Shown here: in pieces, positions 2,966 to 7,714 of the stretch
Numbering within the stretch: position 1 is the stretch's first letter
Layout of the letters: each line of letters opens with the position of its first letter
Source of the DNA: Actinobacteria bacterium casp-actino2
GTDB lineage: Bacteria; Actinomycetota; Acidimicrobiia; Acidimicrobiales; Ilumatobacteraceae
Assembly (NCBI GenBank): GCA_001510335.1
Contig: LFFB01000003.1
Coordinates: 1-35,085, forward strand
Reading direction: 5' to 3'
DNA length: 35,085 bases
Position numbers and translations under genes: made by a program
The notes under the pieces: model-generated
Seen by the model: the letters and a program-made list of their open reading frames with translations, nothing else
What the model was told of the DNA's origin: nothing
The model's database searches: none

Positions 2966-4153
2966 TTAACCCAGTCGCAAAGTTTCGAGCGGTTCAAGTT
3001 TGGCGGCCCGTCGTGCCGGATACAGACCAGCAAGAATTGAAATTGTTATTGCCAGAATGATTCCCGCTGGGGCTAACCACGATGCCATCACAAAGACCCA
3101 ACCGGCAATAGACGCACCAACGAAAATTGCCAACATACCCAGCAGAACACCGAGTATTCCGCCAATCACACCGACCACGATGGCTTCAAATAAGAATTGA
3201 ACAGCGATGATATTGCGAGTGTGCCCGAGCGCTCGGCGGATACCAATTTCGGCCGAGCGTTGAATCACCGAGATTGACATCACATTGGCGATTCCGAGTC
3301 CCCCAACGATAATCGCGAGGAGTCCCATCGAGATTACGATCATCTGCAGTTGACGATCACTTTGGGCCGCTAGCTCCAAAGCTTCACTCTTGATGTCGGT
3401 CGAGATTTCTTGTGGACCACCGAGATTGACTGCCGTCTTCAGTGCTTCGGAAGTTTCGGATTCGGTACCTTCGGTGCATCGAACATACATCTTGTTTGGT
3501 TGAACCTCATCGTCTAGAAAATCGATTTCAGCACGAGCGAATGAAATGAAGACAGCGTTGTCAAAACCAGGCTCAAGTTCAACCGAATCCAAAATTCCGA
3601 CCACTCCATAGGGAATTCCGGCTAATTCAATGGTGCGATTTTCTCCAGGCAACACATCAAATTCACGTGCCAATCCAACTCCGATAACTGCGGCACGAAC
3701 CTCGCTGTCTTCGTCAAATTGGTTGATCCAGCGACCAGATACAAGATTGACTTGCAGCACCGCAGGCAAATTACTGTCAGCGGCAAGTACCGGTATTGGA
3801 ACCGTCTCAAACTTTTCACGAGCCTCTGTATACGGGGTCACTGCGATGTTGGACAATTCGACTACGGCTGAAACTTTCTCGACAGTTTTCACGGTGAGTG
3901 CCCGTTCCACAGCATCAGTGGGAAGGGTTGGATTTTGACCGCCGAATGAACTTGAGGCAGCGGCCTCAATCAGATTGGTGCCAAGTTTTGCGACTTTTTG
4001 CTTTAAGTCTCCCTTAGCTGAATCGGTGAGGCCCACCGACGCAATGATGGCGGCGACTCCGATCATGGGTCCGAGAAGAAGTAATAGGGTGCGCACTTTG
4101 CGGGCGAGTAAGCCAGTGAATGCAACCCGAACAAGATCTTTGAAGGTACTCAT
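2966..4153 (-). CDS. MacB-type ABC transporter permease (FtsX-like)
   Basis: A 395-residue permease with the standard MacB layout: a cytoplasmic N-terminal segment L-L-A-R-K-V-R-T then a first membrane helix (about 22-42), a large extracytoplasmic domain (about 45-270, with L-V-S-G-R-W and a V-I-G-x-G-L-A segment), then three C-terminal helices. The FtsX signature R-S-A-E-I-G-I-R-R-A-L-G-H-T lies between the second and third helices, and the end reads Y-P-A-R-R-A-A-K-L-E-P-L-E-T-L-R. These permeases act as mechanotransmission exporters with a partner ATPase, moving substrates from outside the membrane through an adaptor rather than pumping from the cytosol. The start overlaps the ATPase stop by four bases (ATGA), so coupling is clear. 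Substrate unknown. Confidence 0.93.
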   Translation of the reverse strand: MSTFKDLVRVAFTGLLARKVRTLLLLLGPMIGVAAIIASVGLTDSAKGDLKQKVAKLGTNLIEAAASSSFGGQNPTLPTDAVERALTVKTVEKVSAVVELSNIAVTPYTEAREKFETVPIPVLAADSNLPAVLQVNLVSGRWINQFDEDSEVRAAVIGVGLAREFDVLPGENRTIELAGIPYGVVGILDSVELEPGFDNAVFISFARAEIDFLDDEVQPNKMYVRCTEGTESETSEALKTAVNLGGPQEISTDIKSEALELAAQSDRQLQMIVISMGLLAIIVGGLGIANVMSISVIQRSAEIGIRRALGHTRNIIAVQFLFEAIVVGVIGGILGVLLGMLAIFVGASIAGWVFVMASWLAPAGIILAITISILAGLYPARRAAKLEPLETLRLG

Positions 4154-4872
4154 GAGCGCAGTACCTCATCGGAGACGATTCCGCCGTCGAGCATGGAAAC
4201 TTTTCGTACCGCCGAATTAGCAATGTCTAGATCGTGAGTCACGATGACGACTGCGCGCTCAGAAGAGCGAAGGCCCGACAATATTTCCATCACGTTGGCG
4301 GCATTTTTGGTATCAAGAGCACCTGTGGGTTCATCGGCTAAAAGAATTTTTGGTTCGGTCACGAGCGCCCGAGCAAGAGCAACGCGCTGTTGTTCACCAC
4401 CTGACAGTTGAACAGGTCGATGGTCAGCGCGACGCCCTAGACCAACGCGCTCAAGCGAGGCCATGGCACGATCGCGTCTCTCGGCAGGTTTGAGCGAACG
4501 ATACAAGAGAGCGGTTTCAACATTCCCGATGGCGTCAAGGTGTGGGATTAAATGGAATTGCTGGAAAACAAATCCGATACTTTTTCCACGAACTCGGGTT
4601 CGCGCGGCATCAGCGAGTCGTGTCACCTCCTCGTCGCCAACGGTGATTGTGCCTTCGGTTGGAACATCAAGACACCCGAGAAGTCCGAGCATCGTTGATT
4701 TTCCAGAACCCGATGGACCAACAATCGAGACGAAGTCGCCGGCGCGGATGACTAATGAAACATCACGTAATGCCCATACTGCGGCTTCTCCAGATCCGTA
4801 CACCCGAGATACATGACTCAGTTCCATCAAGATCGTAAGATTTGACGAATCCGCTGAAGTTGATGCGTTCAT
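4150..4872 (-). CDS. ABC transporter ATPase, MacB/LolD type
   Basis: A 240-residue nucleotide-binding subunit with every expected motif: Walker A G-P-S-G-S-G-K-S-T at 52-60, Q-loop F-V-F-Q-Q-F-H-L, signature L-S-G-G-E-Q-Q-R, Walker B I-L-L-A-D-E-P-T-G-A-L-D and H-loop V-T-H-D. The Q-Q-F-H-L-I-P segment and short length are typical of the LolD/MacB/FtsE subgroup that pairs with FtsX-type permeases. About 15 residues precede the conserved M-E-L-S-H-V-S-R-V-Y start, so the internal ATG at residue 16 is an alternative; the first ATG at 4872 was kept because the frame is open. The gene follows the adaptor by 25 bases and overlaps the permease by four, completing a three-part exporter. Confidence 0.95.
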   Translation of the reverse strand: MNASTSADSSNLTILMELSHVSRVYGSGEAAVWALRDVSLVIRAGDFVSIVGPSGSGKSTMLGLLGCLDVPTEGTITVGDEEVTRLADAARTRVRGKSIGFVFQQFHLIPHLDAIGNVETALLYRSLKPAERRDRAMASLERVGLGRRADHRPVQLSGGEQQRVALARALVTEPKILLADEPTGALDTKNAANVMEILSGLRSSERAVVIVTHDLDIANSAVRKVSMLDGGIVSDEVLRS

Positions 4873-4897: not shown

Positions 4898-7039
4898 TTA
4901 TGCCGCTGAGGCGATATTGCCCGAAGCAATATCGACGACGACAAGTTCGTCACCCTTGAGGCCATCTTCGATCTCGACCCATTCGCCATCGATCAAACCG
5001 ATTGTCACTTTGATGCGGGTGATGGTGCCAGCGTCATTGACGATTCGCACCTCATCGCCATCGGCAGAACGCAGGACAGCAGCAACAGGGACAGCGAGGA
5101 CTTGTAAAGCCTCGTCAAGAGTGACGTCAATTGAGACCGTCGCTCCGTCAACGGCACTGAATTCACCTGAAACAGTAATTGTTCCTTCGTACAATTCTTG
5201 GCCGGCGGAGCCGACAGTTGCGCTATCGCCTAGTTCAGAAATTGTTCCAGGAAGTATTTGACCTCCAACTCTGAGATTAACTGAAACAGCTTGTCCAACT
5301 ACGAGTTCAGCGCGATCGGTTGGGCTGACCTTCATTGTGATTGTGAACTGTGGTTCAGTCAGGCTGAGAACAACATTTCCCTGAAGGACAAACTCGCCTT
5401 CATCGACCTCAACCTTGCCGATACGCGCTGGCCAGTCAGCGACGAGCATGTCGGATGGTTTGAATACGACGTCATCGTTGATCACGTTGATCGGAACTGT
5501 CACGCTGCTTGAACCAGCCTTCAAAATAACTGTTCCACTGAGCGCTTTGTAGTCGGCTCCGTTTTGCGCCGTACCAGACAGTTGATAGTTGACTGAAGTG
5601 TCCTCTGTAACTGGAGCATCAGCAACAATGCGGAATGAACCAGTTCGACCTTCGCCTACTGTTCCTCCCCCGATGAGAGTCAATTCAGGTAAATCTCCGC
5701 TCTCGATGATGACTCGAGCACTCACGACATCACCGAGGTAGTAGCGCTCTGTTTTGCCTTCTGGTGGCAGATCTGAAGTGACGGTAAATGTCAAGTTCTC
5801 ATCGGATTCAACAGTGTCGTCGCGCCGAATTTGAATTGGTACGTCAACGCTATATGCGCCGGCATTGATGCTGTAGGTGTCGGTGTTCGGTGTCAAGAAG
5901 TCAACGTCTTGACTCGCACTGCCCGACAACGTCACATTGAACTTAATGTCGCGATTTGACTTAACCGAAGTGCGAACCGTGAAAGTCACAGTTGAACCTT
6001 CGTTAATCGTCTCACTGCTGGCCTTCACTGTCAGAAGTGGACGAAGTTCTGATCCATTCGCCGGAATCACTACTCGCAATTGGTTTGTATTTCCAAGTGC
6101 ATATGTTGGGTCGTTACCAAATTGAGTGGTCATCGCGACCGTGATGTCTTCTTCATCTTCAATCGTATTGTCTACGAAAATCTTTGACGTAAACGATGTT
6201 GAAAGTTCTCCTGCTCGAATCATTACACTTCCCAAAATTCGGTCGTAATCGTCATCGTTGGCCGGATCGTCGCCTGGTGTGGCACTGCCGCCGGTATTTA
6301 ACGCGATCGTTAAGTCTGAGGTAGGAGCAACGTCAGAAGTAATAGTGAATGTGACTGATCCACCTTCAATCACCGACTCGTTGTCAACCGAGATATTCAA
6401 GGTTGGCTTTTGTACTGTCGAACGCAAACTGGAACCGCTTGAGGTCGGCACTGATGGGGTGACGATAAAGGCGGCAGTATTAGATCGACCCACCGAGTAG
6501 GCGGCACTGTTGGGAGCCAGCGAAACGGTGATGGTCTCATCGTTTTCGTTACTTGAACCGCTGTAGCCACGATCAAATTGCCATTTGGCCAAAGCAGTAC
6601 GAGTTTCTTCCGTAAACAGTGTGTCTACGGACCGAATCGCGTAGCCGTCATTATTGAGAATTGTTTCAAGTTGAAGAACATCTGGTCCGACACTGCCAAC
6701 GTTGAGCTCACGATAAAACGAAAAATCTCCAGGAACAGCGACAGCTGTTCGTCCGTCTAGTGCAAACACCCCGTCACCGATTTCAACGGTGTCGCCGTCT
6801 TCAACATTGATCTGACTGACTTTGCCGTCCACTGCTGAGTTGATCTTCTTGGTTTCATTGCGACGTACTTCTCCGGTCACAGTGAGAACATCGGACAGAT
6901 CGCGCCGTTCAACAGCACGCGGAGTGATCAGCAATGCATTGTTGGTGGATGTTCCACCGGACTGCCGACCGATGAATACTGCAACCCCGACGATGGCCAC
7001 GAGACCGACGACTAGTGAGATCTTTTTGACATTGGACAT
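4898..7039 (-). CDS. Exporter adaptor (membrane fusion protein) with peptidoglycan-binding-like segment and inserted Calx-beta domains
   Basis: A 713-residue adaptor, about twice the size of ordinary MacA-like proteins. In order: membrane anchor (about 6-24); first half of the lipoyl/barrel region (about 40-104, V-T-G-E-V-R-R and G-K-V-S-Q-I-N-V-E-D-G-D-T-V); a peptidoglycan-binding-1-like segment (115-159, G-S-V-G-P-D-V-L-Q-L-E and W-Q-F-D-R-G-Y); Calx-beta material (about 162-523); second half (about 524-600, G-K-V-E-V-D-E-G-E-F-V); and a C-terminal barrel and membrane-proximal domain ending D-G-L-K-G-D-E-L-V-V-V. Acidic loops such as D-D-T-V-E-S-D-E-N resemble calcium-binding Calx-beta loops. 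The array starts with a C-terminal half-domain (167-193) and ends with an N-terminal half (450-522). Start ATG abuts the lipoprotein stop (TAAATG). Role: linking a MacB-type exporter to the cell wall is inference. Confidence 0.9.
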   Translation of the reverse strand: MSNVKKISLVVGLVAIVGVAVFIGRQSGGTSTNNALLITPRAVERRDLSDVLTVTGEVRRNETKKINSAVDGKVSQINVEDGDTVEIGDGVFALDGRTAVAVPGDFSFYRELNVGSVGPDVLQLETILNNDGYAIRSVDTLFTEETRTALAKWQFDRGYSGSSNENDETITVSLAPNSAAYSVGRSNTAAFIVTPSVPTSSGSSLRSTVQKPTLNISVDNESVIEGGSVTFTITSDVAPTSDLTIALNTGGSATPGDDPANDDDYDRILGSVMIRAGELSTSFTSKIFVDNTIEDEEDITVAMTTQFGNDPTYALGNTNQLRVVIPANGSELRPLLTVKASSETINEGSTVTFTVRTSVKSNRDIKFNVTLSGSASQDVDFLTPNTDTYSINAGAYSVDVPIQIRRDDTVESDENLTFTVTSDLPPEGKTERYYLGDVVSARVIIESGDLPELTLIGGGTVGEGRTGSFRIVADAPVTEDTSVNYQLSGTAQNGADYKALSGTVILKAGSSSVTVPINVINDDVVFKPSDMLVADWPARIGKVEVDEGEFVLQGNVVLSLTEPQFTITMKVSPTDRAELVVGQAVSVNLRVGGQILPGTISELGDSATVGSAGQELYEGTITVSGEFSAVDGATVSIDVTLDEALQVLAVPVAAVLRSADGDEVRIVNDAGTITRIKVTIGLIDGEWVEIEDGLKGDELVVVDIASGNIASAA

Positions 7040-7714
7040 TTAGGCTCCGTTTTCAATGGCGTCGTTGATGCCGGTCTCAGTGAGGCATTGATCTAAATCA
7101 CGCTGGTTCAAATCGCCGTCTGCACTTTGAAACTGTGTTGGATTAATCAGACCGGAAGAGTCGATTGACGTTTCGATTTTCCAACCCTTCTTCTTCAGGC
7201 AGTCAGAAAGAGCGACAAAGCCCTCGTTACGAGTTTTGATTTCGTCTGGCTTGAGACTGGCTCGGGTGGTGCCAACTTCTCGAAGAACATTGATGATGTC
7301 GCTACGAGCAGCGCATTTTTGAATGACTTCTAGATATGCGGGGTCTTGGTAGGCGGGGTTATTCGGGTCTGCCAAATCTCCACGAATCGTTTGCCCTGCA
7401 TCTTTGATACATCCTGAAAATTCAGCGTACGCATCAAACAGTTTTAGTTCTGGCGGACGGTTGTCTTGATTGAGAGGAATCGTGTCAGAAGTCGTCTCCC
7501 CCGCAGCCAATGAACTGTCAACCTCGTCGACCGATGATTGAATCGCTGGAACCAAAGTAGAGCGCATAGCGATGACTTCTTCGGGAGTCATGACCTGAAT
7601 GGCATCAACATCACGAACCAGAGTTGTGGTTTGGCCAGCCGAACCACAAGCGGACAGTAAAAGGATTGAAATGCCTAATCCGGTAAGGACTGAAGAACCC
7701 CCGTTCAACTTCAT
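7040..7714 (-). CDS. Exporter-associated cysteine-rich lipoprotein
   Basis: A 224-residue lipoprotein: hydrophobic signal (about 8-20) ending in a lipobox L-L-S-A-C with the lipidated Cys at 23, then a Thr/Asp-rich linker and a globular part holding four cysteines (102, 134, 172, 210). The globular part looks like two copies of one unit: F-S-G-C-I-K-D-A-G-Q-T-I ... Q-K-C and L-S-D-C-L-K-K-K-G-W-K-I ... D-Q-C, spaced 32 and 38 residues. This suggests two disulfides in a duplicated fold outside the membrane. From memory, similar C-(M/I/L)-x-x-x-G lipoproteins accompany peptidoglycan-binding adaptors and MacB-type ABC genes in other Actinomycetota; I cannot name a Pfam family. Its stop abuts the adaptor start, so the four genes form one unit. 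Function unknown; substrate capture or adaptor assembly are guesses. Confidence 0.85.
   Translation of the reverse strand: MKLNGGSSVLTGLGISILLLSACGSAGQTTTLVRDVDAIQVMTPEEVIAMRSTLVPAIQSSVDEVDSSLAAGETTSDTIPLNQDNRPPELKLFDAYAEFSGCIKDAGQTIRGDLADPNNPAYQDPAYLEVIQKCAARSDIINVLREVGTTRASLKPDEIKTRNEGFVALSDCLKKKGWKIETSIDSSGLINPTQFQSADGDLNQRDLDQCLTETGINDAIENGA

Follow-up and report, generated by a model that had tools for sequence, protein, structure and literature searches.

We describe a MacAB-like exporter adaptor whose Calx-beta insert is probably closed on itself through a circularly permuted base domain. The gene lies in the window, by which we mean the whole stretch of 35,085 nucleotides that was analysed, from an assembly of 1.57 Mb that is 68% complete. 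The insert begins with the C-terminal half of a Calx-beta domain (C0), continues with two complete repeats (D1 and D2) and ends with an N-terminal half (N0). The predicted pairing of C0 and N0 into one circularly permuted domain is supported by acidic site residues that are retained and lost jointly in the two halves.

Anatomy of the adaptor and its insert

The adaptor is of the MacA/HlyD type (Table 1). Its first lipoyl half is matched by Biotin_lipoyl_2 (residues 65-89, 25.7 bits against a cut-off of 29.8) and HlyD_D23 (residues 48-96), both below the Pfam cut-off, and is conserved in profile A1, which comprises the lipoyl half, the peptidoglycan (PG)-binding-like domain and the C-half. PG_binding_1 also stays under its Pfam cut-off of 23 in the window adaptor (residues 118-158, 19.8 bits); it exceeds the cut-off in five of six scanned relatives (L103, L040, L041, L042 and L148) and falls 0.1 bit short in the sixth, L112. 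HlyD_3 (residues 533-623) scores 35.3 bits, over its Pfam cut-off of 22.2, and RND_mfp (residues 539-703) lies under its own. The lipoyl halves, the HlyD_3 region and the partner MacB-type ATPase and permease are those of a HlyD/MacA adaptor; the alpha-helical hairpin of such adaptors is missing between the lipoyl halves, and the Calx-beta insert is found there instead. The preliminary description had the lipoyl halves split by Calx-beta material. The insert does lie between them, but it starts after the PG-binding-like domain, near the last turn of that domain, and not after the first lipoyl half.

Table 1. Features of the adaptor gene and its neighbours, with positions in the window
Feature	Residues	Position	Strand	Basis
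MacA/HlyD-type adaptor, 713 aa		4898..7039	(-)	one ORF
First lipoyl half and preceding strands	48-97	6749..6898	(-)	Biotin_lipoyl_2 and HlyD_D23, both under cut-off
PG_binding_1-like domain	113-159	6563..6703	(-)	PG_binding_1 match
Calx-beta C-half C0, profile columns 77-105	165-194	6458..6547	(-)	Calx HMM
Ser/Thr/Pro-rich linker C0 to D1, 17 residues	195-211	6407..6457	(-)	
Complete Calx-beta repeat D1, columns 1-106	212-327	6059..6406	(-)	Pfam, Calx HMM
Complete Calx-beta repeat D2, columns 1-105	334-446	5702..6040	(-)	Pfam, Calx HMM
Calx-beta N-half N0, columns 1-77, ending INDDVV	about 451-525	5465..5689	(-)	Pfam, Calx HMM
Second lipoyl half	533-562	5354..5443	(-)	HlyD_3; exact end is our reading
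Beta-barrel and membrane-proximal part	563-713	4901..5353	(-)	RND_mfp; division is our reading
MacB/LolD-type ATPase, downstream neighbour of adaptor		4150..4872	(-)	
MacB_PCD and FtsX permease, downstream of adaptor		2966..4153	(-)	Pfam
Putative lipoprotein, 224 aa, upstream of adaptor		7040..7714	(-)	no family match

That a Calx-beta array interrupts the adaptor, as first proposed from the letters, is borne out by Pfam (PF03160 in three stretches, 3e-14 and 53.5 bits for the whole protein, sufficient for the cut-off) and by a Calx HMM of 107 columns, trained on 11 complete repeats alone. By the HMM boundaries, the borders drawn initially (a C-terminal half-domain at 167-193, full repeats at about 211-325 and 334-446, an N-terminal half at 450-522 stopping at I-N-D-D) were correct to within a few residues. 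D1 and D2 follow the strand order A-G of PF03160, and the split domain has columns 77-105 first. Acidic residues (E/D) occupy columns 14, 47, 73, 77 and 80 in the split domain, D1 and D2, and from these a Ca2+ site is predicted in the repeats of the window.

Pfam finds no match in the C-half alone. When aligned to the complete-repeat profile with hhalign, the C-half profile (74 proteins) covers columns 71-109 with a probability of 89.6% (E 2.2e-7) and the N-half profile columns 1-76 with 99.6%, while eight 40-residue control windows from the host reach at most 1.1%. Because these scores lie far over the host controls, we take C0 and N0 to be true Calx-beta sequence, and a convergent look-alike was rejected as the origin of the C-half. 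Joined in the order N-C, the halves give a single continuous Pfam Calx-beta match of 49.5 bits, up from 34.5 for the N-half by itself and against a cut-off of 27. An assembly artefact was likewise rejected, the arrangement being present in 74 distinct proteins from many genomes.

Relatives and the contents of the slot

By our own counts, matches of profile A1 extending to model position 152 or beyond are present in the following numbers of genomes: 42 of 397 for the order, 33 of 395 for the class and 36 of 200 for the family, where 38 passed the threshold and two of these were shorter. The order, class, phylum and family draws overlap. At E ≤ 1e-25, A1 matched 4 of 396 phylum genomes, all four inside the class. 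Against viral contigs it returned 20 stretches and no relatives. In all, 105 regions were retrieved, almost every one of them around an adaptor, in addition to the loci of the searches. The array-bearing set consists of the 74 adaptors that have both host parts, carry at least 300 inserted residues and remain once identical-end copies are removed; its regions were mostly picked from matches covering the C-half.

All 74 distinct array-bearing proteins have the C-half first and the N-half last in the insert. The C-half starts at columns 74-80 and the N-half ends at columns 74-84 of the Calx HMM, so that, as anticipated for the window adaptor, the half missing at the end is the one at the start in every array-bearing homologue. 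This phase is constant down to about 30% identity with the window adaptor. In one genome, G182 (L068, L104), the C-half was missed at the stricter threshold and is present at the looser one.

Most of the 74 carry two to five complete repeats between the halves. The linker from C0 to the first recognised complete repeat (C0 to D1 in the window) is never shorter than 17 residues, and most links between other repeats have 2-9. Counted from the hits at the looser threshold, it measures 17-50 residues in 52 of 54 proteins with two repeats (114 and 441 in the other two), with three 18-71 (9 proteins), with four 41, 55, 91 and 209, with five 40, 54 and 93, and with one 386-461 (4 proteins). The trend of linker length with repeat number is weak, and some of the repeats counted in family f54 are weak hits. 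This family (L103, L105, L106, L107, L110, L112-L115, L117 and L118) has about 240-460 insert residues that the Calx HMM recognises weakly or not at all, without a Pfam match in the two members scanned (L103 and L112); the stretch is possibly a further domain inside the same closed insert. In L041, the linker after the C-half has 91 residues with many His, Lys and Arg, which sets it apart from the other linkers displayed.

Because most regions had been picked via the C-half, adaptors whose match ends before it were scanned as well, namely the 20 longest further ORFs among the shorter order and class matches, selected by eye, and 19 obtained earlier. All 39 have the host N part and none has a Calx-beta hit, so no array in ordinary phase was seen in the slot; homologues with ordinary, unsplit repeats, which the preliminary description had named as evidence against the split, did not appear. 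We also read the slot contents of Calx-beta-free adaptors in which both host parts were found. The insert-free form sought from the outset occurs in L042, L141, L142 and L143, where the slot is 5 residues long. It holds 50 residues in L154 and 186-215 Ala-rich residues in L148, L149, L150, L151 and L153. By our reading of the letters the Ala-rich inserts are probably coiled coils, which fits the initial remark that a coiled-coil hairpin ordinarily sits at this place.

As a phase control, 40 loci of the class with other Calx-beta proteins were examined, yielding 19 ORFs with at least three hits. None of the 19 has a split-type end (start at column 74 or later, or end at column 80 or earlier); for five of them the visible start coincides with the locus border and is not the true one. 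In 18 of the ORFs the first hit starts at columns 1-18; the remaining one, truncated by the border of its locus, has it at column 39. Last hits end at columns 82-106.

The ATPase adjoins the array-bearing adaptor in 70 of 72 tested loci, and in the two without it (L026 and L118) the adaptor reaches the locus edge. The same ATPase type lies downstream of insert-free L042, L141 and L142; none was found within the locus of insert-free L143. The putative lipoprotein, which has an LSAC motif by our reading, is also upstream of array-bearing adaptors in many relatives, and a homologue with 26% identity is upstream of insert-free L042 too.

Site residues and the probable pairing of the halves

In the portion of the NCX1 study available to us (PMC3386913), E385 and E451 of CBD1 coordinate Ca2, residues E385, D447, I449, E451, D498 and D500 coordinate Ca3, and residue 454 lies near D421 and E451 at Ca1. 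In our alignments D421, D447, E451 and E454 correspond to columns 47, 73, 77 and 80 (an offset of 370 fits all); E385 lies two residues before the aligned stretch, and its equivalence to column 14 is our reading. By these matches, columns 14, 47, 73, 77 and 80 would form one Ca cluster. In the split domain, column 14 belongs to the N-half and columns 77 and 80 to the C-half, about 300 residues apart. The terminal Asp cluster (D498-D500) is absent from C0, which would thus hold only part of an NCX1-type Ca2+ site.

Column 80 of C0 and column 14 of N0 are both Glu in 63 proteins and both another residue in 11, with 0 of 74 discordant. The same two columns agree within the first complete repeat in 71 of 74 proteins and within the last in 73. 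In crossed comparisons, C0 column 80 agrees with column 14 in the first complete repeat in 67/74 and in the last in 69/74, and N0 column 14 agrees with their column 80 in 64/74 and 68/74; the split domain can be told apart from the first complete repeat in only 7 of the 74 proteins and from the last in only 5. On a host-column tree (quick IQ-TREE, 77 rows, 74 of them array-bearing), C0 column 80 changes four times. Across four independent pairs, N0 column 14 changes with it in all four and the DD pair of the N-half in three; the averages are 0.5 for the first complete repeat and 1.5 for the last. With four pairs a sign test cannot reach 0.05. When column 14 was simulated independently on the tree, agreement of 74/74 arose in 0 of 20,000 runs (best, 71).

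Several individual proteins are informative. In L021 and L023 the acids are gone from both halves and retained in D1 and D2; L018 has lost them only in the split domain, with L017 and L140 of the same genus keeping all, and L019 has lost them in the split domain and D2. In L041 and L120, Glu is present in each half, and no complete repeat has it at both columns. The DD pair is less strict, one Asp being changed in 3 of the 63 both-Glu proteins. In one clade of the host tree (L041, L092, L094, L095, L120, L121, L131, L132 and L133), the complete repeats are without most of the Ca2+-site acids, which suggests that these arrays are calcium-free.

The preliminary description had left a choice between halves that pair and an insertion cut mid-repeat, and had looked to a predicted structure for packing of residues 167-193 on 450-522. 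The acidic residues back pairing; AlphaFold2 did not show it. For the full adaptor (9 close sequences), mean pLDDT was 42.8, with host blocks at about 20-45 and C0, without strands, at about 21-25. For the insert alone (9 sequences) the mean was 63.8; D1 (about 43-80 by blocks of ten), D2 and N0 were folded and C0, at 36-40, again had no strands. N0 reached a pLDDT of about 50-80 despite the unbuilt C0, as it might if the insertion had cut an array mid-repeat and left C0 as a loose or host-packed hairpin and N0 as an incomplete sandwich. We consider such a cut improbable: in a leftover fragment one would expect decay or a varying phase, and here both ends hold a constant phase throughout the 74 proteins, distant relatives included, with site residues that agree in every one.

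Joint retention and loss fits pairing within a chain and pairing between chains equally well, and Spr0693 and MacA are hexameric in the part of PMC5768738 at hand; C0 could complete the N0 of a neighbouring protomer and staple the hexamer ring. This exchange is unlikely, as the start of C0 and the end of N0 of one chain would be adjacent, at EF-loop spacing, where 5 residues join the flanks of insert-free adaptors, and a partner in the next protomer would be at longer range than one in the same chain.

A shifted register, C0 with N1, C1 with N2 and C2 with N0, would keep the number of domains unchanged and use the N1 that follows C0 in sequence; the permuted domains would then stand in a row, and the insert would not close. 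We give it very little credence. Most inter-repeat links have 2-9 residues, too few to connect strands G and A of a single sandwich; site agreement is 67/74 for C0 with N1 against 74/74 for C0 with N0; and in L021 and L023 the site was lost only in C0 and N0.

Coevolution outside the site columns was also considered. Mutual information between C0 and N0 was not above that of C0 with other repeats after filtering and cluster bootstrap, in a test without power, since the own halves of complete repeats did no better than crossed ones. A first C0-N0 peak came partly from a gappy column and was gone after the same treatment, which leaves the site columns as the sole ones that are conspicuous. A coupling model from unrelated Calx-beta domains was abandoned, with just 86 full external domains at hand.

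A probably closed insert and its precedents

With C0 and N0 of one chain paired, the chain would leave the PG-binding domain, form strands F-G of the base domain (C0), continue into a loose linker followed by n complete repeats (two in the window) and, on its return, form strands A-E (N0) before entering the second lipoyl half. Strands E and F of a Calx-beta domain are joined by the short EF loop. C0 and N0 would be a single domain opened at this loop, an opening that would put the ends of the insert side by side and leave the old termini to carry the complete repeats, held as a loop or stalk above the base domain. Adjacent entry and exit would suit the host, since the flanks are bridged by so few residues in insert-free relatives. 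The chain must also run back from the upper end of the base domain, so one long link would be expected there, and it is the link from the C-half to the first repeat that is long. As the acidic residues of the EF loop are equivalent to Ca2+ ligands, Ca2+ probably locks this clasp.

The available part of PMC3386913 gives a 117 degree hinge for NCX1 CBD12 and a Dmax of 103-105 Å for two domains in the E454K mutant. Using that hinge and about 50 Å per domain, our arithmetic puts the closure gap at n = 2 at about 95 Å and the span of a 17-residue linker at no more than about 60 Å. Such a linker would be too short at n = 2, and hinges of about 96 degrees or less, sharper than in NCX1, would be required. 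Tentatively, the insert may be a self-closing Calx-beta hoop with a calcium-dependent split-domain lock, six hoops per exporter making a calcium-stiffened beta crown in place of the alpha-helical tube. With repeat numbers of 2 to 5, one clasp might then conceivably serve hoops of different sizes; the base lock can be likened to the closure of beta-propellers by their first and last strands.

The host bacteria are not known to have an outer membrane. In the accessible text of PMC5768738, the adaptor Spr0693 of a Gram-positive MacAB-like pump is a tubular hexamer whose alpha-hairpin barrel has a height of 56 Å. The window adaptor shares with Spr0693 and MacA the HlyD-type lipoyl and beta-barrel parts and the adjoining MacB-like ATPase and permease, and its insert sits at the position of their alpha-helical hairpin; unlike them, as far as that text describes them, it has a PG-binding-like domain and a permuted Calx-beta array in place of the hairpin. 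The array would substitute for the alpha-hairpin that forms the distal tube of MacA and Spr0693, and its probable role is to lengthen or brace the exit duct within the cell wall, beside the peptidoglycan-binding domain. We think of a wall-spanning or bracing role because the array is located where the alpha-hairpin barrel would start, next to the PG-binding-like domain.

NCX1/CALX tandems are the best PDB profile matches of the window repeats, and, compared by fold, NCX1/CALX CBD12 is one of the closest structures to the insert model, with corresponding site residues. NCX1 chains take Foldseek ranks 1-5 (best E 3.5e-9) at a query TM of 0.26, a low overall value that is expected if single domains match and their arrangement does not. 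Unlike in CBD12, the end domain is split and permuted and C0 is without the C-terminal Asp cluster.

The nearest precedent appears to be swaposin (the plant-specific insert of aspartic proteinases), which in the part of PMC3320104 available to us is likewise a permuted domain placed within a protein to which it is not related; it looks like a piece taken out of a tandem array and has its halves in swapped order. Unlike swaposin, described there as a lone permuted domain, the adaptors keep complete repeats between the halves, and these would be the new element. Nothing lies between the halves of a swaposin-type domain; all 74 adaptors have at least one complete repeat together with further repeats or unrecognised sequence there. 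In tandem domain-swapped Ig-like repeats the outer halves combine. Exchange between tandem domains would be common to those repeats and the array, and the Ig-like swaps are misfolded or alternative states in the sections available of PMC4862688 and PMC6863430, unlike the apparently conserved native arrangement here. A literature search, covering few subscription journals, found no description of a permuted Calx-beta domain or of Calx-beta in such adaptors among the papers listed.

The arrangement looks like a new way of plugging a string of domains into a loop. In bead-like domains the two termini lie at opposite poles, and a host loop should therefore not accommodate a string of them; one domain split across both ends of the string would solve this problem, and the split is kept across many families of one class. 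If this reading is right, it may be a general rule for inserting repeat arrays, and the exporters of mostly uncultured actinobacteria would have a beta-built counterpart of the alpha-hairpin tube.

Some relatives show further peculiarities. The first complete repeat of L035 and L038 has a two-residue insertion with two Cys (CLC and CKC), the other seven aligned rows being without Cys at that site. In L046 (546 aa) and L047 (563 aa), the unit of lipoyl half and PG-binding domain is apparently doubled, one part of the query being matched twice. Three loci titled Bifidobacterium breve (L032, L033 and L036) encode adaptors 88-96% identical to that of the window, and L033 and L036 share its gene neighbours too; these titles look mislabelled. 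The titles of the related contigs that carry names refer to actinobacterial assemblies, in one case to acIV, a freshwater lineage of Acidimicrobiia.
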